Positions 182 through 31,536 of a stretch of 35,773 nucleotides of DNA are shown here, piece by piece. The notes beneath the pieces are model-generated. The model did not search any database, was not told the origin of the DNA, and was given only the letters and a program-made list of their open reading frames with translations. A program made the translations under genes and the position numbers. Source of the DNA: Planctomycetota bacterium (GTDB taxonomy: Bacteria > Planctomycetota > Planctomycetia > Pirellulales > Pirellulaceae); the NCBI GenBank assembly GCA_026692885.1, contig JAPLNJ010000284.1:1-35773 (forward strand), read 5' to 3'. Numbering within the stretch: position 1 is the first letter of the stretch; every line of letters starts with the position of its first letter.

Positions 182-190
182 TAAAGCGAG

Positions 191-263
<73 letters not shown>

Positions 264-4577: not shown

Positions 4578-6911
4578 ATGAATAGTGTAGCGTCTTCCCA
4601 CGGCAAGAACAAGTCAAAGGAGGAAACACCGGTCTTGGTGCTGGCGATAAACGACCGTCGAGTCAAGTTGACAGGCGAAGACCTGCAAAGTGAGGAAACG
4701 GTCGATCAAGTCCGGCAAGAGGTCGCAAGCTCGCCAGATACGGTTCGCGTTTCCTTAGCCTACCTCTTGAAGGCGTCCCACGAGGATCGCTTCCGCGCGA
4801 TCGACTTCCTGGTTTCACTGAACGTGGATTGCACGTTTCATGGCGAACAGAAGCAAGTCCTGGGAGATGATCTCTTCGGAGCTACGCTGCAAATGCTCCG
4901 GGCACCGGATGATCTGCAAGCCTACGAGCGAGCCAAACTCGCTGCGATCGAGACGGCCGCCCTGTGTTACCCGGATGCGTTGGACGGTGCGTGCAACCGC
5001 ATCCTGGGTCGTCTGCGGGAACTCGGGGTCAAAGGGATCAAGTCCTCTGACTTGATGCAACAGGCCCGCGAGATCCTCAAACACATTCGCAAACCGCGGC
5101 CCACGGCGGTTGGTGAATCGTGCGAACGACGAGTGTGCGAAGTTTTTCCAGATTCGCCCGCGCCGGCAGAATCGGTCGTACCACCCGGTTGGGAACTTTC
5201 AGAAACTGGCATTCGGCGGCTGGGTGACGATGCTGACAACGGCACGATTCCGCTCCCGCTCGTTGTCGTCGGTCGCTGCCTCGATGTCGAGAACGGTACT
5301 GAGCTCATGGAGGTCGCGTGGTGCCGAGACGGTCAGTGGACCAGACAAACCGCCGAACGCGTCAGGTTGGCAGCCGCACGAACCATCGTCGACGAACTCG
5401 CTCCCTTCGGGGCCCCCGTCACCTCGAACAACGCCCCCTGTGTCGTGCAGTACCTGGCCGATTCCGCGCACGTCAATTCCACTGTCCTCCCCGTGGTTCA
5501 CGTCACCCACCGACTCGGTTGGCAAGGGGATAATGGAAGTGACGGCTTTTTGTGGGGATCAACGATTATCGTCGGTCCGCCGAGCGAAGCCCTGGAAGGA
5601 CAGCCAGAACCGCAAGCGGCCAAGGTGATCACTTTTGCTGGCCACGATGAGGGTGACGATCAGATTGCGGCTGGGTTCACGGCGGCAGGCACACTGGATG
5701 GCTGGTTGGCCGCTGTCGCGCCGATCGCCGACTTCCCGGTCGCGAAATTCATGTTCTATACCGGTTTCGCACCACCGCTTCTGGACATCTTCGGCGCGGA
5801 CAATTTTGTGGCAGAGATCGCCGGACCAACAACGGGCGGCAAGACCACAACGCTCCGCGTTGTGGGCAGCGAGTGGGGCTGCCCAGATGAACGTAGACCA
5901 AATGCGGTCGTCAAGACATGGACGGGCACCAAAGTCTTTCGGGAACGAGTACCTTCGGTCGTCCATAGCCTGCCCACCATTTTCGACGAAACAAAACACG
6001 TCGAGCAACCTGAAGATGTGGCGAAAATGATCTACCTTGTCGCCCAGGGGGTCGGGAAGGGCCGGGGCACGACGAAAGGCATCGCTCGGCAGGCCACGTT
6101 CCGGACGATCTTGTTCAGCAGCGGCGAGCAGACTTGTACAAGCTTCACCAAGGACGGCGGCACGCAAGTGCGAGCGATGACGCTGTGGGGCTCGCCGTTT
6201 GGCGAGATCAGTCCCGATGTCGGCAAGATAGTCAGCGAGATCAATCTCGCCGTGCTCAGCAACTACGGACATGCCGGCCCCATCTTTGTGCAGTTCCTTC
6301 TCGATAACCGTGCGCAGTGGGACGATTGGCGAAGCGTATACCGGGATTTGGTCCGCGACTACGAGCACTTCAGCGAAGGTAACCCGTACGCTCGGCGCCA
6401 AGCACCGATGTTGGCGACTATCCACATGGCGTCGTGGCTGGTTCATCAGGCTATCGAACTGCCCTGGGACGCGGGGGACCCGATCGAGCCGGTGTGGGAC
6501 CAGATCGCCAGGGAGACGAGCGATGCAGATCGCGCCGGCGCCGCACTCCGGCATGTCATGGGGTGGGCTGCCTCGAACCAAAATGCGTTCTACTGCCAGA
6601 AACATTACCGAAGGCAACCCAACCAGGGCTGGGCCGGACGCTGGGATTATCGGCACGAGGTGCAGGGCGAGATCCAGGAGTCAAATTGGGAGTGGATCGG
6701 TTTTTCCCGCGGCGTCCTCACGCAGGTTCTTTGCGACGGCGGGTTCGACGCCGAGTCGATGACTCGCACTTGGTTCGACCGCGGCTGGCTCAAGGTCACT
6801 GAGGAAGCATCTGGTAAATGTCGCCGCGAGTACAAGACCCGGATCGGCAACACAAGTAGCTGGGTGGTGGCGATTCGTCGAACTGCGATTGAGGAACTCG
6901 ATGCCGAGTAG
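4578..6911 (+). CDS. DUF927-family replicative helicase/ATPase
   Basis: 777-aa protein. Residues about 40-170 form the domain shared with the upstream short gene. Residues 203-545 match the DUF927 superfamily of plasmid and phage helicases. They include a Walker A GPTTGGKTT at 416-424, a Walker B-like TIFDET at 467-472, and a 'VRAMTLWGSPFG' segment at 531-541 typical of the family's C-terminal core. The last 170 residues are Trp-rich and probably form a DNA-contacting domain. Such proteins unwind DNA at an element's origin and work with a primase-polymerase, which is encoded next downstream. ATG 4578 follows a weak GGAA. The gene ends directly before the GGGAAC repeat cluster. Confidence 0.85.
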   Translation: MNSVASSHGKNKSKEETPVLVLAINDRRVKLTGEDLQSEETVDQVRQEVASSPDTVRVSLAYLLKASHEDRFRAIDFLVSLNVDCTFHGEQKQVLGDDLFGATLQMLRAPDDLQAYERAKLAAIETAALCYPDALDGACNRILGRLRELGVKGIKSSDLMQQAREILKHIRKPRPTAVGESCERRVCEVFPDSPAPAESVVPPGWELSETGIRRLGDDADNGTIPLPLVVVGRCLDVENGTELMEVAWCRDGQWTRQTAERVRLAAARTIVDELAPFGAPVTSNNAPCVVQYLADSAHVNSTVLPVVHVTHRLGWQGDNGSDGFLWGSTIIVGPPSEALEGQPEPQAAKVITFAGHDEGDDQIAAGFTAAGTLDGWLAAVAPIADFPVAKFMFYTGFAPPLLDIFGADNFVAEIAGPTTGGKTTTLRVVGSEWGCPDERRPNAVVKTWTGTKVFRERVPSVVHSLPTIFDETKHVEQPEDVAKMIYLVAQGVGKGRGTTKGIARQATFRTILFSSGEQTCTSFTKDGGTQVRAMTLWGSPFGEISPDVGKIVSEINLAVLSNYGHAGPIFVQFLLDNRAQWDDWRSVYRDLVRDYEHFSEGNPYARRQAPMLATIHMASWLVHQAIELPWDAGDPIEPVWDQIARETSDADRAGAALRHVMGWAASNQNAFYCQKHYRRQPNQGWAGRWDYRHEVQGEIQESNWEWIGFSRGVLTQVLCDGGFDAESMTRTWFDRGWLKVTEEASGKCRREYKTRIGNTSSWVVAIRRTAIEELDAE

Positions 6912-6930
6912 CGTGGTCTGCGGCCTGCGG

Positions 6931-7219
6931 GGGAACAGGGGGAACAAAGTGGGAACACGGAAAACGGCAGGAAAACCAATAATTCATGAGTATCTGCGCT
7001 CTCATTTCAGTTCTGTTCCCCCGTTCCCACTGGTAGGTAGGCTTCTAGGGCGATTTTCCTCCCACCAGTCTTGTGACCACTCGGGGGTGGAGTGGTGGAG
7101 AAATCCGTCCAGGAGGATCAGGCGTATCGGCGGGGAACGGGGGAACAGACATCCGAAAACCGCTTTCCGCACAGTGTTTTACGGCTCCGAACGCGTTCCC
7201 CCAGCGTGGGAACGGGAAC
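6931..7219. repeat. GGGAAC repeat cluster, candidate replication origin
   Basis: Ten copies of GGGAAC lie in a 326-bp gap between helicase and primase genes. Seven are on the plus strand (6931, 6940, 6951, 7133, 7141, 7208, 7214) and three on the minus (7015, 7023, 7195). They come in tight groups spaced 6-11 bp. The 16-mer GGGAACGGGGGAACAG is present at 7133-7148 and, exactly inverted, at 7013-7028. A near copy starts at 6931. An AT-rich stretch lies at about 6972-6990. Iteron-like repeats between replication genes are typical of element origins; the function is inferred. The gap shows no other gene. Confidence 0.6.
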
Positions 7220-7237
7220 ATTTAGAAAGGAAACAAG

Positions 7238-8374
7238 ATGAACGCTCGTCCGCTTCGGCACCGATCGATCGTAGCCTGCTGTCCTCGCCCGCGTTGGGAC
7301 GATGTGCACTACGCGGCACGAGCCTATCAGGCTGCCGGCTATTCACTCATCCCGATCGCGGCGGATGGAAGCAAGAGGCCTGTCGCGAAACTGCTGCCCG
7401 ATTGGAAGTGGACGGAGTTTCAGACGCGTCTGCCAACGCTCGAAGAAATCGACTACTGGTTTCACGGCTGTCGTGGTGATTATGGAATCGGCATCATCGG
7501 CGGACACGCCAGTGGCGGCCTGGAAGTCATCGACGTGGATGATCTTGAGTGGCTTGGTGCCTTCCGGCAGAACGTGGAGATGCTGGCGCCAGGGCTTTGG
7601 CCCAAACTGATAAAGGTGCGATCACCCCGCCCGGGAATGCATCTGTACTACCGCTGTGATATCTACTCCAGGAGCGGATCACTGGCCCGCGCCCTGATCC
7701 TCAACAAGGAAACGGGCAAGCTAGAGCCCAAGCCGTTCATCGAGATCAAGGGTCAGGGAGGAGTTGGCCTGTCTCCGCCATCTCCCTGCGGCTGCCATCA
7801 CACCGGACGCCCCTACGTGTTCGAGGACGATGCCGACTTAACTATGATCGCCCGCATCACTCCGAAAGAACGCGATGCTCTGCTGGTGGCAGCTCGTAGC
7901 CTGAACCAGTGGGAGCGGGAGAAGAAACATCCAAGGAAGCGGGAGGTTCGTGTGCCCGCCTACGGCGCCGACAGGCCTGGCGACGATTTCAACAATCGGG
8001 CCACGTGGGCGGAGATACTGGAACCTCACGGATGGGCGTTCGTTCACGAAGACGGTTTTGACGTGTGCCACTGGCGGCGTCCTGGGAAAAACGTTGGGAC
8101 GAGCGCCACGACCAACTATAGCGGCGAAGATCGTTTGTACGTCTTTAGCACCTCCGCTGCTCCGTTCGACGAAGATCACTCGTACTCGAAATTCGAGGCG
8201 TACACGTGGCTGGAGCACGACGGTGATTTCTCCGCCGCCGCGAGGGATCTGGCGAGCCGTGGCTTCGGTGGCAAACGCAACCGGAGCCAACATCCGGCGC
8301 CACATCCGCACGATCGCTACTCGCAGGCGTCACTTCGTTCCACGAACGTCACCGTTGATCGGTACCGGCGCTGA
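7238..8374 (+). CDS. Primase-polymerase (bifunctional Prim-Pol, AEP type)
   Basis: 378-aa protein. ATG 7238 follows AAAGGAAA at a good distance. Residues 20-190 match the N-terminal bifunctional DNA primase/polymerase domain. The N-terminal 'AYQAAGYSLIPI' helix is followed by motif I VIDVDD at 97-102 with the metal-binding acidic pair, motif II 'SPRPGMHLYYR' at 129-139 with His135, and motif III 'FIEIKGQGG...LSPPS' at 167-182. Members synthesise primers and extend them in plasmids and phages. The C-terminal 190 residues include a Trp/Cys/His region ('HWRRPGKNVG') that resembles the segment often found after Prim-Pol cores. It lies directly after the repeat cluster and the helicase, which fits one replication operon. 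Confidence 0.88.
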   Translation: MNARPLRHRSIVACCPRPRWDDVHYAARAYQAAGYSLIPIAADGSKRPVAKLLPDWKWTEFQTRLPTLEEIDYWFHGCRGDYGIGIIGGHASGGLEVIDVDDLEWLGAFRQNVEMLAPGLWPKLIKVRSPRPGMHLYYRCDIYSRSGSLARALILNKETGKLEPKPFIEIKGQGGVGLSPPSPCGCHHTGRPYVFEDDADLTMIARITPKERDALLVAARSLNQWEREKKHPRKREVRVPAYGADRPGDDFNNRATWAEILEPHGWAFVHEDGFDVCHWRRPGKNVGTSATTNYSGEDRLYVFSTSAAPFDEDHSYSKFEAYTWLEHDGDFSAAARDLASRGFGGKRNRSQHPAPHPHDRYSQASLRSTNVTVDRYRR

Positions 8375-8595
8375 ATCCGGCAGGTAGAAGACCCAGTGAC
8401 TGACGTCAGCCTGCGAAAACGAAGTACCCCTTTAACCTTTTAGCTTTCGACATAGGAGAACGATCGACCAGCATGGCGGGCGGTGCTGCTTGGACTCTAC
8501 CTGCCGACGTCGTCCGCCAAAGGGTCGGCTGGGAAACTCCGTGCCTAACGTGGGCCTGGAGTACAAATTGCCCTTTTGATGTAGGAGATCTCGAA

Positions 8596-9417
8596 ATGGA
8601 TGCTGAACTGAGCCTTCGCAAGTTCCTCGGACTGGACAAGAGGACGAGCGCGGACGGTAAGCCCGGACAGGGCGGAAAGCCCACGCCACGCGTCGTTGCT
8701 GCCACGGGCCCGCGACGATGCAAGCTGCCGCCTGGGACCCTGCTGAGCAAATTGCCGACCACGCACCAGGCGTTAGACTGGCTCCGTGGGCAGGGCTTCG
8801 ACCCCAAGGTCATCTTCGACCGCTGGGGACCGTACTATGCTGACCACAACGCCGCGGTTGACCCGCTGTTCACGGACGCCCGTGTTGTTGTCCCGATCCA
8901 TTCAATCGAATTAGGCCCGATCGGCGAAAAGGTCGCGTGTCTGGCGGGCTGGGAAGCCATGTCGATCGCCGGGAAGGACCGTTGGATGGGCCGGGCATCG
9001 GAGCCGGTGTGTTCCAAGGACGTAGGCAAGGGCAGCTTGCTCTACGGTTTGCACCATGCGATGGGGACTCGTGGGCCGGTCGTTGTCGTCCAGAAGATTA
9101 CCGACGCTTGGCGTGTTGGGTCAAGTGTGGTTGCGTTTCGGCTTCAGCGCATTTCGCACATCCAGACATACCTGCTCGTGCGCAATCTCAGGAATCGCCC
9201 CCTCGTCGTGCTCCTCGATTCTGAATGGGATTCCGCGAAAGTCGCCGATACGATCCGCTCGTTTCGTCAGAGGGAGTGTGATCCCGCTCCGGTAGTTGAG
9301 GCACACCTGCCGGGGAATTGCGCGACCCTGGCTGGATGTACGACGGAGCAGGCCCGGCAGGCCGTGCGGACGGCACTGAAGGGGATGGCTGCAGGTGGCA
9401 AGGGATCTGATTGTTGA
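8596..9417 (+). CDS. Toprim-domain primase-like protein lacking the usual catalytic Glu
   Basis: 273-aa protein. ATG 8596 is preferred because TAGGAGAT sits 7 bp upstream; an in-frame ATG at 8473 also has an AGGAGA, but its extra 41 residues look non-coding. Residues about 95-220 follow the DnaG/phage primase Toprim plan: 'VVVPIHS' strand, 'GKGSLLYGL', then 'VVVVQKITDAWRVG' at 162-175 and 'VVLLDSEWD' at 204-212. In the family the residue at 166 is normally Glu within an EG.TD motif; here it is Gln, followed by Lys. The acidic residues of the second motif (Asp208, Glu210, Asp212) remain. No zinc finger is present. It probably assists primer synthesis of the element or is a catalytically weakened relative. 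Confidence 0.72.
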   Translation: MDAELSLRKFLGLDKRTSADGKPGQGGKPTPRVVAATGPRRCKLPPGTLLSKLPTTHQALDWLRGQGFDPKVIFDRWGPYYADHNAAVDPLFTDARVVVPIHSIELGPIGEKVACLAGWEAMSIAGKDRWMGRASEPVCSKDVGKGSLLYGLHHAMGTRGPVVVVQKITDAWRVGSSVVAFRLQRISHIQTYLLVRNLRNRPLVVLLDSEWDSAKVADTIRSFRQRECDPAPVVEAHLPGNCATLAGCTTEQARQAVRTALKGMAAGGKGSDC

Positions 9418-9504
9418 CTTCGTTCCACGTGTCGGACAGCGGGCTGGGCGTTCCACACCCGTCTTGTGCGAACAAATTTCCGTTCTTCACGAAAGGAAAA
9501 ACAG

Positions 9505-10455
9505 ATGAGAGACCACACCTACAGCATGAATAGCGACATCCAGCCGACGCCAAGACTAGCCAGGATAGGATTGGCCGAGTTCGGCATCGATGTCGGCACC
9601 AAGTGCAGCCACGGCTGCACGTACTGCACCAACAACGCAATGCGTGATACTCACTGTCACGAGTCTTTCCGGCAGGCCGGCGAGGACCCCTTCGGTACTG
9701 AATTCAGCATCGTCGATCCCGACATGGCGAGCAAGGTCTCATACCGCGCAAAGAAATCCCGTAATCGCGGCCTTGTGCAACTCTGCAACTCGTCGGATGC
9801 ATGGGCACCGGAGGCTCGGAAGCACAATCTCGGACGCCGTTGCTTGGAAGCGCTCCTGGCTGAGCCGGGGTGGACAGTCAGGGTGCTCACCAAGAACGCC
9901 GCGGTCGCTGAGGATTTCGACTTGATCCTCAAGCACCGGGAGCGTGTGCTCGTGGGCCTGAGCCTCACTGGCACACCGGACAAGGAAGAGGTCTTGTCGG
10001 TGGTGGAGCCCCTCGCCTCACCGCTCTCCGAACGGTTCGCTGTGTTGGAAAAGGCCCGCCGGATGGGGTTGCGCACGTACGGGATGCTGTGCCCGCTCTT
10101 GCCGGGGATCGCCGATGACCTGTTTCAGATCGATTATCTGGTGCGTTTTCTCGCCTACTGCAGAGTCGAGGAAGTGTTCGCGGAGGGGGTCAGCCCTCGC
10201 GGCCATAGTCTAAAACGGACCAGCGAGGCGCTGCGGGCTGCCGGGTTCCATGCCGAAGCCGATGCGGTCTTGGGGATTCGGAGTTGGGACCAGCGGTCAC
10301 GCTACCTGAACCAACTGCTTGTGAATCTCCAGCAATCGGTGCGACGGCACATGTGGTCGATCGACATGCTGAAGTTCCCTCTATTCCACTTCTCTCGATA
10401 CGGGGGTGAGGATGCGCGCATCCGCGAGACCGATCAGGGCGTGGTCTGGTTGTAG
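9505..10455 (+). CDS. Radical SAM protein within the replication module
   Basis: 316-aa protein. ATG 9505 follows AAAGGAAA. The [4Fe-4S] cluster motif CSHGCTYC gives Cys34, Cys38 and Cys41 (CX3CX2C). The rest follows a radical SAM half-barrel, with strands at 'LVQLCNSSD', 'VRVLTKN', 'VLVGLSLTG' and 'GMLCPLLPGI'. The layout recalls the spore-photoproduct-lyase-like/DNA-repair-associated radical SAM proteins, but a specific substrate cannot be named. It sits between the Toprim gene and a remnant of DNA polymerase, suggesting a link to nucleotide or DNA modification or repair in the element. A strong hairpin follows the gene. Confidence 0.8.
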   Translation: MRDHTYSMNSDIQPTPRLARIGLAEFGIDVGTKCSHGCTYCTNNAMRDTHCHESFRQAGEDPFGTEFSIVDPDMASKVSYRAKKSRNRGLVQLCNSSDAWAPEARKHNLGRRCLEALLAEPGWTVRVLTKNAAVAEDFDLILKHRERVLVGLSLTGTPDKEEVLSVVEPLASPLSERFAVLEKARRMGLRTYGMLCPLLPGIADDLFQIDYLVRFLAYCRVEEVFAEGVSPRGHSLKRTSEALRAAGFHAEADAVLGIRSWDQRSRYLNQLLVNLQQSVRRHMWSIDMLKFPLFHFSRYGGEDARIRETDQGVVWL

Positions 10456-14439: not shown

Positions 14440-16917
14440 ATGACGGTTCGGACATCCATTGAACTCTCGTTTCTGGGCGGTGCCACGGCGATTGGCGCTT
14501 CGTGCACGCTGGTCCGGGTCGGCGGCACAACCTTGCTCGTGGACTGCGGCGTACGCTACTCGGGATCGAGCTCGCTGCCGGACTTGTCGGCGCTGGCTGA
14601 GACGACGGTCGACGCGGTGCTGGTGACCCATGCCCACATGGACCATTCCGGCGGCCTGCCGGTGATCTCGGAAGCCTGCCGCGGGGCGCCGGTGCTGGCC
14701 ACGCCGCCCACGATCGATCTGGTGGGTATCTTGTTGCAGGATGCGCTGCGATTGATGACTGGCCCGGAACGGGAGGCGGAGTTGCCGCTCTACAGCGAGC
14801 GTCAAGTCGAGCAGTTGCTGGCTGCTCTGGTGCCGGTGAAGTTTCACCAGCCGATGCGCATCAAGGACATCGAAGTCCGCTGGCTGCCGGCCGGGCACAT
14901 CCTGGGAGCCGCCATGCTCCAGCTCAAGACACCTGCCGGGACGGTCCTGTTCACCGGCGACTACAGCGTCTCGGCCCAACAGACCGTGCCGGCGCTGGGC
15001 CGCCCCGATTTCCAGGCGGACTTAGTGATCAGCGAGGCCACGTACGGCGAGCGGTTGCACGAGGATCGGGCGGCCGCCGAAGAACGGCTGCTGGGGCAGA
15101 TCGGTGAAGTGATCGCGCGGGGCGGGCGCGTGCTGATCCCCGCCTTCGCCGTCGGCCGGGCGCAGGAAGTCCTGCTGATCCTGAAACGCGCCCAACGCAA
15201 TGGCACGTTGCCCCCGGTACCGGTCTTCGTCGATGGCATGGTCCGTGCAGTCTGCGCCGTCTATGGCAGGCACGAGCCGTACGTGTCGCGCTCGTTGGCC
15301 CACGAGATTCGGCGGGCGCCCCATGCCTTCTACACGGACATGATTCAGCCCGTCACGCGGCCTGAGGAGCGGAAGCGGGTGCTGGCGACGAGCCCCTGTA
15401 TTATCGTCACGTCCAGCGGCATGCTGGCCGGGGGACCTTCGCTGCTATATGCCCAGACACTGATCCAGAACTCGCAAGATGCCATCATCCTGACCGGCTA
15501 CCAGGACGAGGAATCCCCCGGCCGAGCCTTGCTGGACCTGGCCCCCACCGCAGGCCCCAAGGAACTGCGGCTCGGTCAAGCGACCGTTCCCGTCGCATGC
15601 TCGTTCGCCACCTACGGGCTGTCCGCTCACGCCGATCGCATGCAGATGGTTTCCTTTCTGGAAGCCTTGGACCCGCACACCGTGGTGCTGGTTCATGGCG
15701 ACGAGAATGCCAAGGAGGCGTTGGCCCGCAGTCTCCGCTGCTCGGACGTGGTGGCGGCGCGAGATGGCAACGTCCTGCGACGTGATTACCCCTCGCGTCC
15801 CGGGACCGGCGTCAAATCACCGCCGGTGATCCCGACGGCGGCGGACCTGGACATCGACCGGGCTCGCCACCTGCTGGGACCCGCAGGCGGAACACCGGTG
15901 CAGGCTGCCGCAGTGGCGGAAGCCTGGTTCGGCCAGGCCGTGGACCGGAGCACCGTGGAACGCTTCTCGCGGGTGCTCGAAGGGATCGGCTTGGTGCGGC
16001 GCGACGACGAACGCCGCGACCGACTCTGGGTGCTCGGCCCGCAAGACACGCATCTGTTTCCGGAGGAGGCGGAGTTAGAGGAACAACTCAAGCAGGCCAA
16101 TCCCAAAGGTCGGTTGCTGGAATTCTGCATGCGTCAACGGATCGATCCGCCGCAGACCGAAACGGAGTCGCAGGGGCCGTTCTACCGGGCCCAGATGTCA
16201 CTCGGCTATCAGGGTGAAACGCTGGTCAGCGGGCCTCAGCAGGCAGCCTCCAAAAAGGTCGCCGAACAACTGGCGGCCCAAGTCCTGCTGAACTTGGTGT
16301 CCGCACGCAGTTCCGCGGCGGACGTGATCCGCGTCCACGAAGAAGATCTGCCTCGTTTGCAGTCCGTCAATCCGAAAGGCCAACTGCTGGAATGGTGCGC
16401 GAAACAGAAATGGCCGGCGCCGACGTTTGAACAACAAGCCAGCCCGGAAGGATATCGGGTCCGCACGCTGGTCGGTGCGGAGAGCGAAGCCCGGACCTGC
16501 TCCGCCTGGCACTTGGCGGTCACGCTCAAGGCTGCCGAGCAGGCGGCGGCTGAGGCCGTGCTGGAGAGCGTCCGCGGCCAGCCGGCCGGCGGTCAGACGG
16601 TGGTCATTGCTGGTCCACCTCAGCAGCCGTCGCCGCCCGGGCCGCCGGGACCAGATCGCAACGCCGCGATGGTCTTGAACGAACTACGACAGGTCGGAGT
16701 GCTGGATGCCTCAGGCTACGAGGTCGTTCATGAAGAAGGCCCGAGCCACCAGCCCGTCTTCTCCACGGTCGCGTGGGCAACCACGCCTGATGGGCAGACT
16801 TGGCGCGCCAGTCCTGTTCGTGCCTCCTCCAAGAAGGCCGGCCAGCGTTCCGCCGCCGAGAATCTGTTGGAACTGCTTGTGGCACACGGCATCACGGGGC
16901 GAGCTGGGGCGTGTTAG
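14440..16917 (+). CDS. Beta-CASP metallo-RNase with three dsRNA-binding domains
   Basis: 825-aa protein with a complete metallo-beta-lactamase/beta-CASP nuclease core of the CPSF-73/RNase J class. Metal ligands are HAHMDH at 64-69, His153 (PAGHILG), Asp174 (FTGDYS) and His419 (LVHGDE). The beta-CASP motifs are Glu199 (ISEATYGE) and His397 (LSAHAD), with the CPSF-like 'TSSGMLAGGPS' at 324-334. Residues about 466-535 look like a winged helix. Three dsRBDs follow: about 552-620 ('NPKGRLLEF', 'ASKKVAEQLAA'), 642-712 ('NPKGQLLEW', degenerate end) and 738-816 ('VLNELRQVG', 'SSKKAGQRSAAENLL'). A Pro/Gly linker at 724-739 separates the last. This predicts a cytoplasmic endo- or 5'-exoribonuclease aimed at structured RNA. 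ATG 14440 has a weak GGTGA. In bacteria the dsRBD is normally confined to RNase III, so this fusion is unusual. Confidence 0.9.
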   Translation: MTVRTSIELSFLGGATAIGASCTLVRVGGTTLLVDCGVRYSGSSSLPDLSALAETTVDAVLVTHAHMDHSGGLPVISEACRGAPVLATPPTIDLVGILLQDALRLMTGPEREAELPLYSERQVEQLLAALVPVKFHQPMRIKDIEVRWLPAGHILGAAMLQLKTPAGTVLFTGDYSVSAQQTVPALGRPDFQADLVISEATYGERLHEDRAAAEERLLGQIGEVIARGGRVLIPAFAVGRAQEVLLILKRAQRNGTLPPVPVFVDGMVRAVCAVYGRHEPYVSRSLAHEIRRAPHAFYTDMIQPVTRPEERKRVLATSPCIIVTSSGMLAGGPSLLYAQTLIQNSQDAIILTGYQDEESPGRALLDLAPTAGPKELRLGQATVPVACSFATYGLSAHADRMQMVSFLEALDPHTVVLVHGDENAKEALARSLRCSDVVAARDGNVLRRDYPSRPGTGVKSPPVIPTAADLDIDRARHLLGPAGGTPVQAAAVAEAWFGQAVDRSTVERFSRVLEGIGLVRRDDERRDRLWVLGPQDTHLFPEEAELEEQLKQANPKGRLLEFCMRQRIDPPQTETESQGPFYRAQMSLGYQGETLVSGPQQAASKKVAEQLAAQVLLNLVSARSSAADVIRVHEEDLPRLQSVNPKGQLLEWCAKQKWPAPTFEQQASPEGYRVRTLVGAESEARTCSAWHLAVTLKAAEQAAAEAVLESVRGQPAGGQTVVIAGPPQQPSPPGPPGPDRNAAMVLNELRQVGVLDASGYEVVHEEGPSHQPVFSTVAWATTPDGQTWRASPVRASSKKAGQRSAAENLLELLVAHGITGRAGAC

Positions 16918-17815: not shown

Positions 17816-18430
17816 ATGAACCCTACGTCCACCTCCTCTTCGTCAATCGGCTCGACATCGTCCAGTCTGATCCAGCGCATCAAGGCCCAGGATGCCGACG
17901 CCTGGACTAAGCTGGTGCGGCTCTACGGGCCGCTCGTGGACTTCTGGCTGAGCCGCGAGGGGCTCGATGGGGCTGATGTCGAGGATGTCTTCCAGGACGT
18001 GTTTACGACGGTGGCGCGGGGGATCGCGGACTTCCGCAAGGATCGTCCCGGCGATACCTTCCGGGGTTGGCTGCGGACGATCGTACACAGCCGTGCCGTG
18101 GATCATTTTCGACGATCACGAGGGCGTCTTCGGGCAGCCGGTGGTTCCGAGTTCCAGCAACGGCTGCAGAACATCGAGGCCCCGGCCGCCAGCGATGGCG
18201 ATGGCCCCGAAGAAACCCGCCAGATCCAAGATGTGCGATTACGAGCGTTGGAGCTGATCCGATCCCAGTTCGAGCCGCGGACCTGGGAAGCGTTCTGGCG
18301 CGTTACCGTCGAGGGCCACACGACTGCCGATGTGGCCCAGGACCAGGGCATCACGCCGTCAGCGGTTCGCTTGGCGAAATCGCGTGTGCTGCGGCGGTTG
18401 CGGGAGGAATTGGGTGACCTGGAGCCGTGA
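17816..18430 (+). CDS. ECF RNA polymerase sigma factor
   Basis: 204-aa sigma-70-family factor. Region 2 spans about 18-104, with 'DVEDVFQDVFTTV' (core binding and -10 contacts) and 'FRGWLRTIVHSRAVDHFRR'. Region 4 spans about 140-199, with 'FWRVTVEGHTTADVAQDQGITPSAVRLAKSRVLRRLREE' type HTH elements for -35 recognition. A Ser/Thr-rich N-terminal tail of 17 residues precedes region 2. Regions 1 and 3 are absent, as in the ECF group. It is followed 205 bp later by a Ser/Thr kinase with a zinc-finger-like N-terminus. This gene pair is common in planctomycetes, where the kinase and its anti-sigma-like domain may control the sigma factor. Confidence 0.92.
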   Translation: MNPTSTSSSSIGSTSSSLIQRIKAQDADAWTKLVRLYGPLVDFWLSREGLDGADVEDVFQDVFTTVARGIADFRKDRPGDTFRGWLRTIVHSRAVDHFRRSRGRLRAAGGSEFQQRLQNIEAPAASDGDGPEETRQIQDVRLRALELIRSQFEPRTWEAFWRVTVEGHTTADVAQDQGITPSAVRLAKSRVLRRLREELGDLEP

Positions 18431-18635
18431 CTGGAATCTCACAAGACGACAAAGGCGAACGGGGTGGACCAGCCTGGGGCGTGTTGCGGTCCTGCGTTAT
18501 TTCCAGTGGCAGAAGTGATGCCGGTGCTGGGTTCTGGCACGCGACCGGTACGAGGACACCACCAGACCAGTCATGTTGCCGTTGTTCATGTGGTGCGGAA
18601 ATGACTAAGCCCGTCCTGGCAAAGGGCACATTGCG

Positions 18636-20747
18636 ATGACACGCAAACCGGACCCAACCCATGAAGTCTGTTATTCCCGCGAGGTGCTGGCGGACTTCGT
18701 ATTGGGCAAGTTGCCGCCCCAGGACTTGGAGCGGATCGCCGCGCAGGTCGAGAATTGTCCGACCTGCAATGCGGTGCTGCAGACGTTAGACGGCCTGGAA
18801 GATTCCGTGGTGAACGATCTGAAAAAGGAGTTGTCGTCGTTCTCCGGTCAGCCAAGCCCGGAGCTTGAACGAAGACTACGGCGAGCGGAGACGCTTGGTC
18901 ACGAGCTTCAGCGGACGCAGCCAGTGGCAGCCGGCGTCGCAGCGCAACCGCCCATGCACGACGACAACCTGCCCAAGACGTTCGGCCAGTACCAGCTACT
19001 GGAACGCATTGGCCAGGGCGGCATGGGCACGGTGTACAAGGCCCATCATACACGGCTCAAACGGCCTGTGGCCATCAAACTGCTGCCCACGGGACGGACC
19101 CGTGACCCGCAAGCCGTCGCCCGATTCCAGGGCGAGATGGAAGCCGTTGGCCGATTGGACCATCCCAATTTGGTCCGTGCCCATGATGCTGGGGAAGCGG
19201 AAGGGCAGCATTTCCTGGCGATGGAGTATCTGGACGGAATCGACTTAGCTCGGTTGGTCCGCTCGTCGGGGCCGTTGCCGATCACCGATGCCTGCGAGGC
19301 CATCCGGCAGGCAGCGATTGGCCTGCAATACGCCCACCACCACGGACTGGTCCATCGGGACGTGAAACCGTCCAACTTGATGCGCACGGCCGGTGGAGTC
19401 ATCAAGGTCCTGGATTTGGGCTTGGCACGGTTGTCGAGCGATCAGCCGGGGGCGGATCAGATGACCGAGACCGGCCAAGTGCTGGGCACCGGCGACTATA
19501 TCTCGCCGGAGCAAGGCCAGGATGCAAGGCACGCGGACGCAAGGTCTGACATCTACTCGCTCGGCTGCACGCTGCATTTCCTGCTGGCCGGCCGGGCGCC
19601 ATTCGCCAGCCCGGAGCACAGTACGTTCGCCAAGAAGGTGGTGGCGCATACGGAGCAGCCGATCCCACCGATCATGGCCATTCGCGGTGACGTCCCCGAT
19701 GCCCTGGTGATGATCCTGGGGCGGATGACCGCCAAGTTACCCGCCGAGCGGTTCCAGACAGCCGCCGAGGTCGCAGCAGCGCTGGAAACCTGCGTGACGG
19801 ACAGCGATCCAAAAGGTGTTGCCCCGGAACAGACCACGGGGCCCACGCGGTTCCCGGACGGGAGCGTTCGGCCGCTTCCACGATTCGCTCGCAGGGGCCT
19901 GTTACTCGTGGGATTCCTCGTGCTCGTTGCGGTGCTCACTATCCTGGCCCATCGCTACGGCGGACGCGTCGCTTACGCGGTTCGCAACCTGCCCGATCCC
20001 ACCGAGAACGAGCGGGCAAGCGAAGAGGTCAACGCCGACCTTGGGCAGTTGGTCCAGGAAGTCCAGCACGACCTGGCGGCAATGCAGCGCGAGCGTGAAT
20101 CCGAGTCCAATCCGACACCGCCGACGCAGCCACCGCAGCAGAACGTCCCTGTGGTCACGGCTGGTGTACGTCAAAGCGACCGATTCGACATCTGGTTGGT
20201 CATCGGGCCGTTTCTGTACGACTCGCGTGACGAGGCGTACGACGCGGAGCACGCCATTGAGAAGGAGCCATTCGACGCGAATCGTCGCTTCGACACGACC
20301 GAAGGCCAAGTCGGCTGGCGACGATTTGAGGCCGCGCCGGAGGTTGATGGCAAGGTTGTACTGGTTGAGGCTGCCGGCCGGGCGCCGCCAGCGGGTCGGG
20401 TCGGGGTCTACTACGCGGTGTGCTGGGCCAAGTTCGCGGGCAGCCACCGCGCCGTAGATCTCCGATTCCGCTCCTCATGCCCGTACAAACTGTGGGTCAA
20501 CCGCACGTCTGCCAATGGCAGCCCCGGAGAAAGCGGAAACTTCGGAGGCGGGGTCCTGTCACACGGTGGCACAGGCGGCTGGAACGAGCTGTTCTTCAAG
20601 TTTGTGGTTTTTGTGGACCGGAAGCCACCGGCAGACTTCCGGCTCCGCTTCCGTCACCCAGAAGACACGTTCGGGCGGCTGATCAACCAACCGCTGCCGT
20701 CCATCACAATCGAGTCGCCGCAGGATGGGAGACGTTCGGCAAAGTGA
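18636..20747 (+). CDS. Membrane-anchored Ser/Thr protein kinase
   Basis: 703-aa PknB-like kinase. The N-terminal segment (10-60) has a Cys41-Pro-Thr-Cys44 pair, like a degenerate anti-sigma zinc finger that has lost its His ligand. The kinase domain spans about 117-386: glycine loop GQGGMGTVY at 126-134, Lys148 (VAIK), catalytic loop HRDVKPSN at 240-247, DLG at 260-262 in place of DFG, and GTGDYISPEQ in the activation segment. A single transmembrane helix at 421-438 is followed by a Gln/Pro-rich linker and an extracytoplasmic-type beta-rich domain (about 515-695) with no family that I recognise. It probably senses an external cue and phosphorylates cytoplasmic partners, perhaps the sigma factor upstream. 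Confidence 0.93.
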   Translation: MTRKPDPTHEVCYSREVLADFVLGKLPPQDLERIAAQVENCPTCNAVLQTLDGLEDSVVNDLKKELSSFSGQPSPELERRLRRAETLGHELQRTQPVAAGVAAQPPMHDDNLPKTFGQYQLLERIGQGGMGTVYKAHHTRLKRPVAIKLLPTGRTRDPQAVARFQGEMEAVGRLDHPNLVRAHDAGEAEGQHFLAMEYLDGIDLARLVRSSGPLPITDACEAIRQAAIGLQYAHHHGLVHRDVKPSNLMRTAGGVIKVLDLGLARLSSDQPGADQMTETGQVLGTGDYISPEQGQDARHADARSDIYSLGCTLHFLLAGRAPFASPEHSTFAKKVVAHTEQPIPPIMAIRGDVPDALVMILGRMTAKLPAERFQTAAEVAAALETCVTDSDPKGVAPEQTTGPTRFPDGSVRPLPRFARRGLLLVGFLVLVAVLTILAHRYGGRVAYAVRNLPDPTENERASEEVNADLGQLVQEVQHDLAAMQRERESESNPTPPTQPPQQNVPVVTAGVRQSDRFDIWLVIGPFLYDSRDEAYDAEHAIEKEPFDANRRFDTTEGQVGWRRFEAAPEVDGKVVLVEAAGRAPPAGRVGVYYAVCWAKFAGSHRAVDLRFRSSCPYKLWVNRTSANGSPGESGNFGGGVLSHGGTGGWNELFFKFVVFVDRKPPADFRLRFRHPEDTFGRLINQPLPSITIESPQDGRRSAK

Positions 20748-26202: not shown

Positions 26203-28512
26203 CTAGGACAAGCACCGTTGCAGGATCTTCTGAAACTCGTTCATGGTGATCGGTTTCGCCAAATAGTCGTTGCAGCCGGCCTGCAGGCATCGCTCCCGAT
26301 CCCCGGCCATGGCGTAGGCCGTCACGGCCACGATCGGGCCGCGCCAGCCTTGCTGCCGGAGCCGTTGTGTGGCTTCAAAGCCGTTCAGGCGAGGCATCTG
26401 CATGTCCATCAGGATCAGAGCGTAGGGCTTGCCCTCAGCCTGGGACCGCTCCGCCAGTTCGCACGCCACTTGACCATCTTCGGCCAGGTCGACATCCAGC
26501 TTCCGCTTCTTCAGCAGATGACGAATCACCATCTGGTTGTCGGGCGAGTCCTCTGCGAGGAGCACGCGCCCCTGGAGTTCTCGTGCCGGCTGGACGGCCG
26601 GGAGGGATTCTCGCGCGTAAGACAGTTCCGGCAGCGCTGGCGGCAAGCAGACGCCCTCCGGCAAGCCGGTATCGATGGTCAGGCTGAACGTACTGCCACG
26701 GCCGATTTCGCTGGTCACCACGATCTCGCCACCCAGGGCCTTGGCCAGGCGTTGGGAGATGGCCAAGCCCAGGCCCGTGCCACCGTAACGACGAGTGTTG
26801 CTGCCGTCCACTTGCATAAAGGGCTGGAACAGTTTGCCGAGCTTGTCCGCCGGAATCCCGATGCCCGTATCCGTGACTGCGAACTGTAACCGCGAACCCT
26901 CTGCCAAGGCCTGGATCGTTAGGTGGACCTCTCCTTGCTCGGTAAACTTCACGGCATTGCCCAGGAGGTTTACGAGCACCTGGCGCAGACGGGCCGGATC
27001 GGTGTGGATGGTTTCGGGCAGCGGAAGCCGGCAGACCCGTTGGAGACCGATGCCCTTCCCGGCGGCCCGCAGCTTCACGACCTCCAACACGTCCTCAATG
27101 ATCCGTTGGAGCTGACAGGGGGTCTTTTCGATGACCAATCTGTCCGCCTCAATCCGTGATAGATCCAAAATGTCGTTGATCAGTCTCAGGAGGGCATTTC
27201 CATTGTTCTGAATCGACTCCACGAATTCGGCTTGCTCGGTATGTGTCAGTTCGGTGTCCGCCAACAAATCGCTGAAGCCTAGAATGGCGGTCATCGGCGT
27301 GCGGATTTCATGGCTCATGTTGGCCAGAAACTCGCTCTTGAGGCGGCTGGCCGTTTCGGCCGCAGCTTGGGCCAAGTGCAGTTGCTCCTCGGTCCGCTGG
27401 CGCTGAATGCCCAACGCATAGGACTCGGCCAGCCGCCGGACAGCCCCCACGTCCTCGTCGGTGTACTCGCGTCCCGGATTGGCCAGGGCGATTTGACCGA
27501 CCAACTCATCTCCCAACAAAACCGGGACGGCGAGCAACTGCCGCAGTGGCACATGACCGGGAGGCACGCCCAGCGCGGCTGGGTGCTCCGGGGGCGAGTT
27601 CGTGAAGAATCCTTGGCGCGTGTTGAGGGCTGCTCCCCATAGGCCGCGATATGTCCCGTCGCTGCTTCGTGGCATGACAATCGGTCGATTTCCCTGATGA
27701 CCTTCCGGCAGCATCTCGGTGAAGGTGTGGGCCACGTGCTCACCGGTCGCCGGATCGACAATTGAGACAAAACCGTGCTCGCTGCCCGACAGGAGGAGGG
27801 CTTGTTCCAGCACCGCCTGAGCCATCGCGACCAGAGAAGCGGCGGGCGAAATCAACGGTTTGTGCAAGATGGCCAAGGCCGAGGTCACGGCCCCATCCCA
27901 ACGCACATGTTCCTCCGCCCGTTTCCGCGCGGTGATGTCGCTCAGCGTGACCCGGCAGACAGGCGTCTGGCACTCCCCGTCCTGCCTCACCGTCGCCTCG
28001 AGCCTGGCCCAGAACCAGGTGGCATCGTGCCGGGCCATCCGCAATTCGCACACCTGCGGCTGGGCCGTCGCCAACAACTGCCGACGGTGCCGGTAGTAGG
28101 TATCCTCGTCTTCGGGGACGATGAAGCGGGACAGCAACTGCTTGACCAACTGACCGCGGGGCATTCCGAGCAGGGTAGCGGCAGTGAGATTCGCCTTCAA
28201 GATTAGACCCTGTTCGCTCAGGGTGACATGGCCCACGGGGGCCAGGTCGTACAGGTCGAAATACTCAGCTCGCGAGGTCTGCAGTTCCAGCTGCGCGCGG
28301 CGCAACTCCTCGTTCTGCAACTCCAATTCGACCTGATGCACACGCAGTTCATGGAACAGACGCCGCGTCTCGTCGAGCGACATCGTCGCGATGTTCTCCG
28401 ACGCCTGTGCCGCGTTATTCCGGGTGATCTCTTCGGCCTGCTGGCGCAGCAACTGTCCTGCCGAAGGCGTCGCGGGGGCTGCTTGTTCGAGTCGGTCATC
28501 CTGGTCTTGCAT
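26203..28512 (-). CDS. Hybrid histidine kinase with PAS, GAF and receiver domains
   Basis: 769-aa cytoplasmic sensor; no membrane helix is seen. It starts with a helical region (20-80), then PAS (about 81-200, ending in the 'DITARKRAEE' tail) and GAF (about 210-375). HisKA follows with phospho-acceptor His401 in SHEIRTP, then HATPase with Asn519, DTGIGIP at 548-554 and GTGLGLA at 578-584. The C-terminal receiver has acidic residues at 654-655, phospho-acceptor Asp703 in LMDMQMP and Lys753. It lies 15 bp after the CheB-CheR fusion and is probably cotranscribed with it. The signal probably comes from a small ligand bound by PAS or GAF. No separate output regulator is adjacent, apart from the phosphatase further right. 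Confidence 0.94.
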   Translation of the reverse strand: MQDQDDRLEQAAPATPSAGQLLRQQAEEITRNNAAQASENIATMSLDETRRLFHELRVHQVELELQNEELRRAQLELQTSRAEYFDLYDLAPVGHVTLSEQGLILKANLTAATLLGMPRGQLVKQLLSRFIVPEDEDTYYRHRRQLLATAQPQVCELRMARHDATWFWARLEATVRQDGECQTPVCRVTLSDITARKRAEEHVRWDGAVTSALAILHKPLISPAASLVAMAQAVLEQALLLSGSEHGFVSIVDPATGEHVAHTFTEMLPEGHQGNRPIVMPRSSDGTYRGLWGAALNTRQGFFTNSPPEHPAALGVPPGHVPLRQLLAVPVLLGDELVGQIALANPGREYTDEDVGAVRRLAESYALGIQRQRTEEQLHLAQAAAETASRLKSEFLANMSHEIRTPMTAILGFSDLLADTELTHTEQAEFVESIQNNGNALLRLINDILDLSRIEADRLVIEKTPCQLQRIIEDVLEVVKLRAAGKGIGLQRVCRLPLPETIHTDPARLRQVLVNLLGNAVKFTEQGEVHLTIQALAEGSRLQFAVTDTGIGIPADKLGKLFQPFMQVDGSNTRRYGGTGLGLAISQRLAKALGGEIVVTSEIGRGSTFSLTIDTGLPEGVCLPPALPELSYARESLPAVQPARELQGRVLLAEDSPDNQMVIRHLLKKRKLDVDLAEDGQVACELAERSQAEGKPYALILMDMQMPRLNGFEATQRLRQQGWRGPIVAVTAYAMAGDRERCLQAGCNDYLAKPITMNEFQKILQRCLS

Positions 28513-28527
28513 GGTGCACCCACACTA

Positions 28528-31500
28528 TTAGATCACTTTTGGCCTTTTCACCCGTTCCGTGGTCGCAATCGCATACACTTGCCCGGCTTCATTCACCAAA
28601 GCGGTCGAGGTCATCGAGACATCTAGCACCGTACCGTCTTTACAGATCCGTTGGGTACGATACGGCTCCAGGATTTCCGTCTGGCTCAGCTGATGGACCT
28701 TGACCAGAGCTTTCTCACGCTGCTCTTCGGGGATGCGGTCGCGGACGTTCATCACCAGTGCCTCGGCTTCCGTCCAACCATACAGCCTGACCGCTCCCCC
28801 GTTCCAGGCCAGGATGCGGCCCTCCAAGTCCTGCAGGGTGATGGCATCGCGTGCATCGCGCACGACCACCGCCAGACGGTGCAACTCATTGGCTTTCCGC
28901 AACGCTTCCCGCGTCTGCTTCATCTCCGTGATGTCCACAAAGGTGAGCACCGCGCCCTCGATCACGTTGTCCAGCGTGCGGTAAGGCTGGATGCGCATCA
29001 TGTACCACTTGCCACTGGTGGTCTGCATTTCCAGCTCTTTGCGAACCAGCGTGTCCAGCACGGCCTGCACGTCTGCCACCAGACGGTCGTAGCCGACCAG
29101 ATTGGAGACTACATGACCCACAGGTCGCCCCACGTCGCTCAAAATCAGGTTGATGATCTGGGTGGCGGCGGGGGTGAATCGCAGGATGCGCAATTGATGG
29201 TCCACGAAGACCGTGGCGATGCCGGTGCCCGCCAGCAGGTTGTTCATGTCGTTGTTGGCCCGCGACAAGTCAGTCAACTTGTTCTGCAATTCGGCGTTGA
29301 CCGTAGCCAGTTCCTCATTGACCGACTGCATCTCCTCGTTCGAGGACTTCAGCTCTTCGTTGGAAGTCTCCAACTCCTCGTTGGCGGCCTGGAGGTACTC
29401 CTCCTTGGCCCGCAACGCGTGCTGGAGCGCGGCGATGCGGGCGCCGGCGTCCCCAGTCTCCGAGCTGTCCGCCCCCACGACAGCTGGCACGGCGGCGGCC
29501 AGCTGCGGCACCTGTTCGGGGTTGCTCGGCGGCGATTCCTCCAGAGTGATGAGGTACACGGGCGTCTCCAGAGTTGTTGCGGCGGGGCCTGCCGTCACCG
29601 GCCGGACGGTCAGGTTGACCGTCGTGAAATCGCCATTGGTTTTGACGTGCAGGCCCAGGTGACGCACGACCTCTCTGGTCCTCGCCGCATTGTGCAGGGC
29701 CGCGGTCAACTCGTGCCGCAAGCCTTCGCGGGCCATCTTCAGGATGTTGCTGACGCCGGGCTCACCAGGGGTCGGTTCCAAGTACATGCCAGTGCGGCCG
29801 TGCAGGTAGTGGATGTCGCCCTGCCCGTTGACCAGCGCGCCGGCCGGAGCAACATGCTGCAGGAGCAGCTGTTCGGTCCACTCGCGCAGCGACCGTTTCC
29901 CAGAGTTGGCCGTCTTCTCGGCGGTCCGTGGGACCGCCCCATCGGTCGCCGTCATGGGCGGGACAAAGCGACTCAGGGCCGCGTGCGGTGCGTTGGAAAT
30001 ACCCTCTTTGCGCTGATACAGCTTCAACTTACGTTCCACCGTGGCAAACAGATCGTCAAACTCGCCCACGGTCTCCGAGGTACCCAGGAAGAGAAAACCG
30101 CCCGGGTTCAGGGCGTAGTGAAACAGGAACATGAGCTTCTTCTGGAAGTCCCCGCCCAGATAGATCAGCAGGTTGCGGCAACTGATGAGATCCAGTTTGG
30201 AGAACGGCGGGTCCTTGATCACATTCTGCTCGGAAAACACCAGCATGTCGCGGATGCCTTTGTGGATGCAGTAGGCACTGCCGCCGGGCTCGGCCGCGAA
30301 AAAACGCGCCAGCCGTTCCGGCGAAATGTCGGTGGCAATGCTGGCCGGATAGAGGCCGGCCCGGGCCGCGACAATCGCCCGACTGTCAATGTCTGTGGCG
30401 AAGACCTGCACCTTGAAACTCTGCTTCAACGTCTCCAGACGCTCCTGCAGCAGGATCGCGAGGGAATAGGCTTCCTCGCCGGTGGAACAGCCCGGCGACC
30501 AGACGCGAATCACGGCGCTGGCGGGCTTGCCGGCAAACAGTTTGGGGATGACTTGTTCCTCGACGGTCTGGAAGGCCTGGGGATCGCGGAAGAAATTGGT
30601 CACACCGATCAGCAGGTCGTGAAACAAGGCTTCCACCTCCACCGGCGTCTGCTGCAGGTACTTGACGTACCCGTCCAGCGTTGCGATCTGGTGGACGGCC
30701 ATGCGCCGCTCGATGCGGCGATTGATGGTACTCGACTTGTACTGGGAGAAGTCGTGGCCAGTCTGTGCACGCAGCAGGATGAAGGCTTTCTTCAAAGCAT
30801 CCTGGGTCTTGGACGCCGGGACAGTGGTGGGCCGGAATGGTTTGCCGAAGGCATGGGTCGCATAGGCGATCAGCTGGGCCGGCATCTCGGCTGGCGGTAG
30901 CTCGAAGTCCACCAGGCCGGTGGCGAGAGCGCTACGCGGCATGCCGTCGTATTCGGTGGAGGCGGGGTTCTGGGCCATGACCATGCCGCCCTCACCCTTG
31001 ATGGCCCGCACGCCAAGCGTGCCGTCACTGCCGGTGCCTGAAAGCACAATGCCGACGGCCCGTTCATGCTGATCTTGGGCCAGGGAGCGGAAGAAGAAGT
31101 CGATCGGGAGTCGCTGCCCACGGGGTGCAGATGGTTCCAGCAGTTGGAGCGTGCCATTCAGAAAGGCCATGTCGCGGTTGGGCGGGATGATGTAGGTGCA
31201 GTTGGGTTGCACCACCATCCCGTCCTCGACCTCGAAGACCTGCATGCGGGTGTAGCGTCGGATGAGGTCGGTCAGGATGCTCTTGTGGTCCGGGGCCAGA
31301 TGCTGCACCAGGACAAAGGCCATGCCGGGATCGGTGTCAGCAGGTAGGCCGGAGAAGAATGCCTCGAAGGCCGCCAGCCCACCTGCCGACGCGCCGATAC
31401 CGACAATCGGAAAGACTTGCTCCGGAGCTACGTCCTGGGGGGGTGTAGTTAGTGCATCAAGTGGGGCCTCTGCCGGAATCTGAGACACGCTCGCCGGCTC

Positions 31501-31536
31501 GGCGGGTGGTGCCTGGGGTTGTTCGTTCTCGTTCAT
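28528..31536 (-). CDS. CheB-CheR-PAS fusion sensor protein
   Basis: 1002-aa protein. ATG at 31536 follows GGTGG; the frame is open to 31572. Domains are a CheB methylesterase at about 42-225 with catalytic Ser50 (GASAGG), His79 and Asp171 (GTGSDGT), then a CheR methyltransferase at about 245-510 with the SAM loop 'SPGCSTGEEAYS' at 347-358 and 'DLISCRNLLIYL'. A coiled coil of repeated Asn-Glu-Glu units (about 690-750) joins it to two PAS domains. It has no kinase of its own; the hybrid kinase downstream is the obvious partner. Fusions of this type are common outside classical chemotaxis. No methyl-accepting receptor or CheA is visible here, so the methyl-group target is unknown. Confidence 0.93.
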   Translation of the reverse strand: MNENEQPQAPPAEPASVSQIPAEAPLDALTTPPQDVAPEQVFPIVGIGASAGGLAAFEAFFSGLPADTDPGMAFVLVQHLAPDHKSILTDLIRRYTRMQVFEVEDGMVVQPNCTYIIPPNRDMAFLNGTLQLLEPSAPRGQRLPIDFFFRSLAQDQHERAVGIVLSGTGSDGTLGVRAIKGEGGMVMAQNPASTEYDGMPRSALATGLVDFELPPAEMPAQLIAYATHAFGKPFRPTTVPASKTQDALKKAFILLRAQTGHDFSQYKSSTINRRIERRMAVHQIATLDGYVKYLQQTPVEVEALFHDLLIGVTNFFRDPQAFQTVEEQVIPKLFAGKPASAVIRVWSPGCSTGEEAYSLAILLQERLETLKQSFKVQVFATDIDSRAIVAARAGLYPASIATDISPERLARFFAAEPGGSAYCIHKGIRDMLVFSEQNVIKDPPFSKLDLISCRNLLIYLGGDFQKKLMFLFHYALNPGGFLFLGTSETVGEFDDLFATVERKLKLYQRKEGISNAPHAALSRFVPPMTATDGAVPRTAEKTANSGKRSLREWTEQLLLQHVAPAGALVNGQGDIHYLHGRTGMYLEPTPGEPGVSNILKMAREGLRHELTAALHNAARTREVVRHLGLHVKTNGDFTTVNLTVRPVTAGPAATTLETPVYLITLEESPPSNPEQVPQLAAAVPAVVGADSSETGDAGARIAALQHALRAKEEYLQAANEELETSNEELKSSNEEMQSVNEELATVNAELQNKLTDLSRANNDMNNLLAGTGIATVFVDHQLRILRFTPAATQIINLILSDVGRPVGHVVSNLVGYDRLVADVQAVLDTLVRKELEMQTTSGKWYMMRIQPYRTLDNVIEGAVLTFVDITEMKQTREALRKANELHRLAVVVRDARDAITLQDLEGRILAWNGGAVRLYGWTEAEALVMNVRDRIPEEQREKALVKVHQLSQTEILEPYRTQRICKDGTVLDVSMTSTALVNEAGQVYAIATTERVKRPKVI

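Follow-up and report, generated by a model that had tools for sequence, protein, structure and literature searches.

A conserved bacterial protein family joining a CPSF-type beta-CASP core to a winged helix and three double-stranded RNA-binding domains

A 35,773-nucleotide stretch of DNA (hereafter the window) from a Planctomycetota bacterium of the Pirellulaceae (assembly GCA_026692885.1, contig JAPLNJ010000284.1, positions 1 to 35,773 of the forward strand) was found to carry a gene of 825 codons whose product consists of a beta-CASP core of the CPSF/aCPSF/TTHA0252 type, whose catalytic residues are intact, followed by a winged helix and three double-stranded RNA-binding domains (dsRBDs). 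This five-part architecture is that of a conserved family and not a one-off, and as far as the literature was searched, a dsRBD-bearing beta-CASP family is undescribed. The protein is predicted from its sequence to be a ribonuclease (RNase). We propose, at a probability of roughly one half, that the dsRBD arm docks the enzyme at an RNA duplex and that the core would cut the neighbouring single strand.

The gene (14440..16917, plus strand) was a single open frame with an ATG start and a GC content of 0.78 at third codon positions, and its product showed 44–89% identity to 25 aligned relatives. The Pfam models Lactamase_B, Beta-Casp and RMMBL were all matched above cut-off. In an alignment of 121 rows, comprising the window protein and 120 full-length relatives, H64, H66, D68, H69, H153, D174, E199, H397, H419 and the whole of Q355-G361 were invariant in every row, and D35 was an aspartate in all 119 rows with a residue at that position. 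The first-pass annotation of this DNA, made from the letters alone, had proposed a CPSF-73/RNase J-type core with all metal ligands; the CPSF type and the ligands were borne out, the RNase J type was not. Membership of RNase J was rejected on the model scores (41.9/400 bits for TIGR00649 and 27/820 for the RNase J1 model) and on a gap in both sequence and structure scores. The nearest solved structures to the model of the window protein included TTHA0252.

An AlphaFold2 model from 73 aligned family members (mean predicted local distance difference test, pLDDT, 88.9; predicted TM-score, pTM, 0.77) contained three alpha-beta-beta-beta-alpha units at residues 541-623, 634-713 and 742-815, and over the whole protein the Pfam dsrm model matched three stretches (7.4e-18). 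When the three C-terminal units were also scanned one by one against the dsrm gathering score of 23 bits, dsRBD1 (34.7 bits) and dsRBD3 (27.6 bits) lay above it and dsRBD2 below (17.0 bits, E 0.009); profile comparison showed dsRBD2 to be homologous to dsRBD1 (E 9e-26) and dsRBD3 (E 2e-8). Residues 472-531 of the model ran helix-strand-helix-helix-strand-strand, which is the order of a winged helix, and no Pfam model was above cut-off in this region. Fold searches with the full-length model covered only about residues 3-456; the folds of the dsRBDs and of the winged helix were assigned from Pfam, from profile comparison and from the succession of elements in the model, rather than from a fold search of their own. 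The winged-helix-like segment and the three dsRBDs joined to a beta-CASP core, as read in the first-pass annotation, are thus retained.

A search with residues 440-825 returned at least 94 proteins, and a search with a 22-row alignment at least 835 at E <= 1e-150; both scored only the 7997 candidates having most words in common with the query. A precomputed dsrm domain was present in 117 of the 120 matches listed from the alignment search, the three without it being P0084, P0091 and P0095. From both searches 141 proteins were fetched, and the 120 with at least 760 residues were kept as full-length relatives (21 shorter ones excluded). The 22 rows behind the profiles of the individual parts, namely the window protein plus 21 of the 141, match by construction. 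Core, winged helix, dsRBD1, dsRBD2 and dsRBD3 were found in this order, each at E < 1e-3, in 119/120 full-length relatives; the sole exception was P0024, in which the dsRBD3 match was poor. That the fusion is an assembly artefact or a decaying gene can practically be dismissed: the relatives come mostly from metagenome assemblies and are rare in genome samples, but their parts keep their order throughout the family, the catalytic residues are invariant, and some relatives lie on multi-megabase contigs (P0112, 8.0 Mb; P0115, 6.4 Mb; P0122, 9.1 Mb). Database relatives bear machine-made names such as 'Cft2 family RNA processing exonuclease/dsRNA-specific ribonuclease'. No characterisation or description of a beta-CASP-dsRBD fusion was found in titles and abstract starts among the matches listed from the open-licence literature, a scope within which subscription papers could be missed. 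The first-pass annotation had likewise known of no described bacterial enzyme with this arrangement.

Type-A dsRBDs, which bind double-stranded RNA (dsRNA), contact it through three regions: a glutamate in helix 1, a GPxH loop and a KK pair at helix 2. All three regions were present in dsRBD3 only, where they were kept in most of the 121 rows (E748 in 108, G767 in 119, P768 in 112, H770 in 120, K798 in 113 and K799 in 109). Besides the helix-1 glutamate (E561, 114/121), dsRBD1 kept a basic pair at 605/606 (K in 87 and R in 23 rows, and K in 107 and R in 11, respectively), and in dsRBD2 the glutamate was kept in 120/121 rows (E651).

What the data show directly are these dsRBD3 contacts, the domain make-up, the intact ligands, the conservation and the presence of KH folds in the same place in a sister family (see below). 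In the mechanism that we propose, the three dsRBDs of the C-terminal arm, of which one is canonical and two are divergent, would hold the enzyme on an RNA hairpin or duplex, where its narrow active site would cut the single-stranded RNA alongside. According to the available part of PMC3095777, the active sites of MTH1203 (an aCPSF) and TTHA0252 are about 10 Å wide and admit single-stranded RNA only, and RNase J structures are reported to hold single-stranded RNA in their channel (PMC4652760, available part). Since such active sites take single strands only, the arm more likely places the enzyme at a duplex, leaving the core to cut the adjoining single strand; RNase activity, duplex binding and a cut next to the duplex, not inside it, are what we infer. 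Such an enzyme would give bacteria a structure-guided RNase besides RNase III. The selection of structured RNA predicted in the first-pass annotation is supported in a weaker form, since dsRBD3 keeps its RNA contacts in most rows; cutting of dsRNA itself is not supported, given the single-strand width of the active site.

Several observations weigh against docking at a duplex. The GPxH loop was absent from dsRBD1 and dsRBD2 family-wide, and dsRBD2 had a single conserved basic residue in helix 2, at 697 (K in 102 and R in 16 rows), so that two of the three dsRBDs may not bind dsRNA. The net charge per dsRBD was about zero (family medians -1, +1 and -1), and RNA binding may therefore be weak. 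Moreover, no neighbour or co-occurring gene pointed to a substrate among the loci compared and the 20 neighbour ORFs (open reading frames) scanned. The array might be mainly a platform for protein-protein contacts or dimerisation, with dsRBD1 and dsRBD2 as type-B domains pairing subunits or binding a partner and dsRBD3 as a weak RNA clamp. Type-B dsRBDs without RNA-contact residues are reported to bind proteins (PMC5716075, available part), which fits the loop missing from dsRBD1 and dsRBD2 and the one residue of the basic pair missing from dsRBD2, and the aCPSF MTH1203 is described as working as a dimer (PMC3095777, available part). However, dsRBD1 keeps the 605/606 basic pair that type-B domains lack, and no partner gene was common to the loci nearby, so that we consider a platform of this kind unlikely; for dsRBD2 on its own, protein binding in the manner of type-B domains may apply.

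An enzyme docked by its dsRBDs could instead be a processive 5'-3' exonuclease acting in decay like TTHA0252, with the array holding structured RNA while the core degrades from the 5' end. TTHA0252 is reported to act as a 5'-3' exo-RNase, probably with endo activity as well, and to affect global mRNA (PMC4229858, available part). On the other hand, stems would block a cleft of single-strand size unless unwound, no helicase domain was found in the protein or in the 6/20 neighbour ORFs with a Pfam match, and exo and endo mode cannot be told from sequence. We regard this as rather doubtful, although it deserves some weight beside single-strand cleavage next to a docked duplex.

The position of the family among beta-CASP proteins was examined in a tree of the core region of 110 proteins (33 of the dsRBD type, 72 of a sister family and five more distant paralogues), made by a quick method with no bootstrap. 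The dsRBD family formed one side of a branch with an SH-aLRT support of 100, and a single gain of the dsRBD array is probable, since the family forms one clade; the sister group was not recovered as a single clade in this tree. The window protein fell into a 13-row clade with L001 and L095 (the latter from the survey of the order of G001, see below), and its near relatives included names such as Thermoguttaceae, in keeping with a planctomycete source.

The sister family (L020:11282-12481 and 44 other loci) was commoner than the dsRBD family in the samples examined and was found in Clostridia, Lachnospiraceae, Chloroflexota, Latescibacterota, Myxococcota and others. It shares with the dsRBD family the core, the consensus TGYQDEESPGR, a similar length and probably the winged helix; the shared consensus is partly due to selection, because TGYQDEE was one of the two scan patterns. 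For the winged helix, aligning residues 436-540 with the C-terminal part of the sister family in hhalign gave a probability of 79% (E 1.5e-5), which fell to 48% with the whole C-terminal part, so that a winged helix common to both families is probable. Unlike the dsRBD family, the sister family carries C-terminal KH folds in place of dsRBDs. No Pfam KH match was obtained in the nine members scanned, and the best fold match of the sister C-terminal model was the N-terminal KH pair of archaeal aCPSF1/FttA. The TM-score by query was 0.15, such scores being low because one KH pair makes up about one third of the model. Single KH units superposed well (2.1 Å over 64 residues, 9bct), whereas alignments of the full aCPSF KH pair had a large root-mean-square deviation (8.5 Å over 124 residues, 2ycb). 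NusA followed close behind aCPSF (rank 6, 2.5e-4), many KH-like ribosomal chains scored nearly as high, and in the sequence profile search two receptor fusion constructs outranked the aCPSF rows. The evidence is thus stronger for a KH fold than for a special kinship with aCPSF. A second KH pair is suggested by a repeat of elements in the model. One sister protein from Anaerolineae (L016:5401-8202) had a frame that ended in a match to the ParB N-terminal domain (1.1e-7).

Since the sister family shares core and winged helix and ends in KH folds, the dsRBDs occupy the position of their relatives' KH modules; the idea that they are remnants of the sister C-terminal domains was rejected, as no profile similarity was found. 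With the two families side by side, the specificity of the beta-CASP core becomes testable in single-chain enzymes. In archaea and eukaryotes, beta-CASP nucleases make RNA ends under the guidance of attached RNA-reading modules or subunits. FttA is reported to have a role in archaeal transcription termination (PMC11616081, available part). By analogy, the dsRBD protein could be a bacterial counterpart of FttA/aCPSF1 in which KH modules reading single-stranded RNA have been swapped for dsRBDs reading hairpins, and which would generate the 3' ends of transcripts by cutting next to terminator or attenuator stem-loops. We put this forward as a speculation with little probability; if true, several bacterial phyla would have a cleavage-based, structure-guided formation of RNA ends.

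The dsRBD-type gene was rare and patchy. It was found in 2/392 genomes of the phylum of a Pirellulaceae assembly (G001; both previously known carriers, with two candidates per genome scored), and eight further genomes of this phylum gave a match at the threshold that did not include the dsRBD part. Within the order of G001 it was present in 2/196 genomes, one of them new, within the phylum of G002 in 2/235 (both previously known, one further genome matching without the dsRBD part) and within the phylum of G005 in 1/8, which was the seed itself. As genome completeness was not given, absence in the surveyed genomes is soft. RNase III coexisted with the gene in 7/7 carrier genomes searched.

With three dsRBD folds, of which dsRBD3 is canonical, the protein might select and cut dsRNA itself, perhaps in antisense control or defence. 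This is improbable in the light of the single-strand-only cleft described for MTH1203 and TTHA0252 (PMC3095777, available part) and of the RNase III present in all seven carriers searched. Defence against dsRNA, which the first-pass annotation had included, did not find support either: no PADLOC-DB family matched at E 0.001 (a library of known and candidate systems of 2023), no defence-like or common neighbour was seen, and no full-length relative was found in the plasmid, phage or viral collections. Of the records there, 0/228 matching plasmid records and 0/18 matching phage records covered 80% of the protein, and none of 16 pattern matches in the viral contig collection was confirmed as a relative. 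Phage records H9-H13, which are unannotated and derive from human faeces, contained beta-CASP core relatives, about 28–32% identical over about half of the query.

BLASTP comparison (1e-8) of the window, L001-L006 and L010 (L095 excluded) showed no neighbour common to the loci. Apart from the gene itself and antisense frames within it, the comparison gave a single match, a kinase-like one linking window 18636-20744 to an ORF about 5 kb from the L002 gene. Of the 20 neighbour ORFs at seven loci, 14 had no Pfam match at 1e-4; the other six matched glutamine synthetase, GTPase, MMPL, PPDK, flagellin and WD40, and these differed between loci. The nearest ORFs were on the opposite strand or far away in the window, L006 and L010, both flanking ORFs in L003 shared the strand of the gene and lay within 60 bases of it, and one small same-strand ORF was nearby in L001, L002, L005 and L095, so that the gene is not clearly a stand-alone one across loci. 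A promoter and terminator scan gave matches at chance level only. The coordinates of the gene and its parts are listed in Table 1.

Table 1. Parts and conserved residues of the beta-CASP-dsRBD gene in the window.
Feature	Coordinates	Strand	Evidence
Whole gene, 825 aa: beta-CASP RNase-type core, winged helix, three dsRBDs	14440..16917	+	ORF list, translation
Metallo-beta-lactamase domain, first part, residues 19-186	14494..14997	+	Pfam Lactamase_B 2.4e-14
HAHMDH metal-ligand motif, residues 64-69	14629..14646	+	H64, H66, D68, H69 in 121/121 rows
H153, metal ligand (motif 3)	14896..14898	+	121/121 rows
D174, metal ligand (motif 4)	14959..14961	+	121/121 rows
E199, beta-CASP motif A	15034..15036	+	121/121 rows
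Beta-CASP domain, residues 241-364	15160..15531	+	Pfam Beta-Casp 2.3e-23
QDEESPG signature, residues 355-361	15502..15522	+	121/121 rows; largely common to sister family
RMMBL region, residues 383-432, with H397 (motif B) and H419 (motif C)	15586..15735	+	Pfam 5.3e-12; both His 121/121 rows
Winged helix, residues 472-531	15853..16032	+	Order of elements in AlphaFold2 model
dsRBD1, residues 541-623	16060..16308	+	Pfam dsrm 34.7 bits scanned alone; fold
dsRBD2, residues 634-713, divergent	16339..16578	+	dsrm 17.0 bits; homology to dsRBD1; fold
Linker, residues 715-738, low confidence	16582..16653	+	pLDDT < 50
dsRBD3, residues 742-815	16663..16884	+	Pfam dsrm 27.6 bits scanned alone
GPSH loop of dsRBD3, residues 767-770	16738..16749	+	G767 119/121, P768 112/121, H770 120/121 rows
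KK of dsRBD3 helix 2, residues 798-799	16831..16836	+	K798 113 K + 7 R, K799 109 K + 11 R, 121 rows

Elsewhere in the window, a tRNA-Lys gene (190-263, minus strand) adjoined a phage-integrase gene (343-1836), an arrangement like that at the border of an integrated element. Insertion via this pair at the left window end was considered and rejected: no 13-base word of the tRNA region recurred in the window, and thus neither an element border nor a link to the beta-CASP gene was found. A DUF927/Cch-type protein (4578-6911), two ORFs without Pfam match (7238-8374 and 8473-9417) and a radical SAM protein (9466-10455) were encoded further on; the genes at 4578-10455 may form an integrated element together with the integrase. 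At 17816-20747 lay a gene for a Sigma-70-type (extracytoplasmic function-like) sigma factor followed by one for a protein kinase with a weak N-terminal zinc-finger match, and at 26203-34240 a signalling block with a PAS/GAF hybrid histidine kinase, a CheB-CheR-PAS fusion, a response regulator-PAS-SpoIIE phosphatase and an MpsC-domain ORF (31907-32404).

CPSF-73/YSH1 and INTS11 have the same core fold and ligands as the window protein; they are subunits of eukaryotic complexes and are not known to contain a dsRBD. The bacterial CPSF-like beta-CASP RNase TTHA0252 of Thermus thermophilus (431 aa) consists of the core only, without a C-terminal RNA-binding arm. In aCPSF1/FttA (PDB 2xr1, 2ycb, 3af5 and 9bct) the KH domains are at the N end (PMC3095777, available part), whereas in the window protein the metallo-beta-lactamase domain comes first and the winged helix and three dsRBDs make up the C-terminal end. 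An N-terminal KH domain was not found in the window protein, whose first core strand starts at residue 7 and whose listed ORF runs from the first start codon downstream of a stop, and the NCBIfam aCPSF1 model TIGR03675 was not reached (310.2 of 580.2 bits). Cas14 of type VII CRISPR, whose C-terminal domain is reported to resemble that of Cas10 (PMC12669027, available part), was rejected as well (NF045584, 271.7 of 800 bits; no Cas domain in the 18 other window ORFs scanned). RNase III has a dsRBD from the same Pfam family as those of the window protein, whereas its catalytic domain was absent from the latter (no Pfam match at E 1). The RNase III model matched the whole protein at E 3.5e-10, with the best stretch at residues 542-618 on model positions 140-217 and no stretch below 0.01 alone; an RNase III origin of dsRBD1 is not claimed, this match being only a weak pointer. 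A survey describes dsRBDs joined with RNase III and HEPN in cyanobacteria, a combination unlike the fusion in the window (PMC3710099, available part). As far as was searched, what is new is a predicted beta-CASP RNase with a different RNA-reading module, on a core of a type already known.
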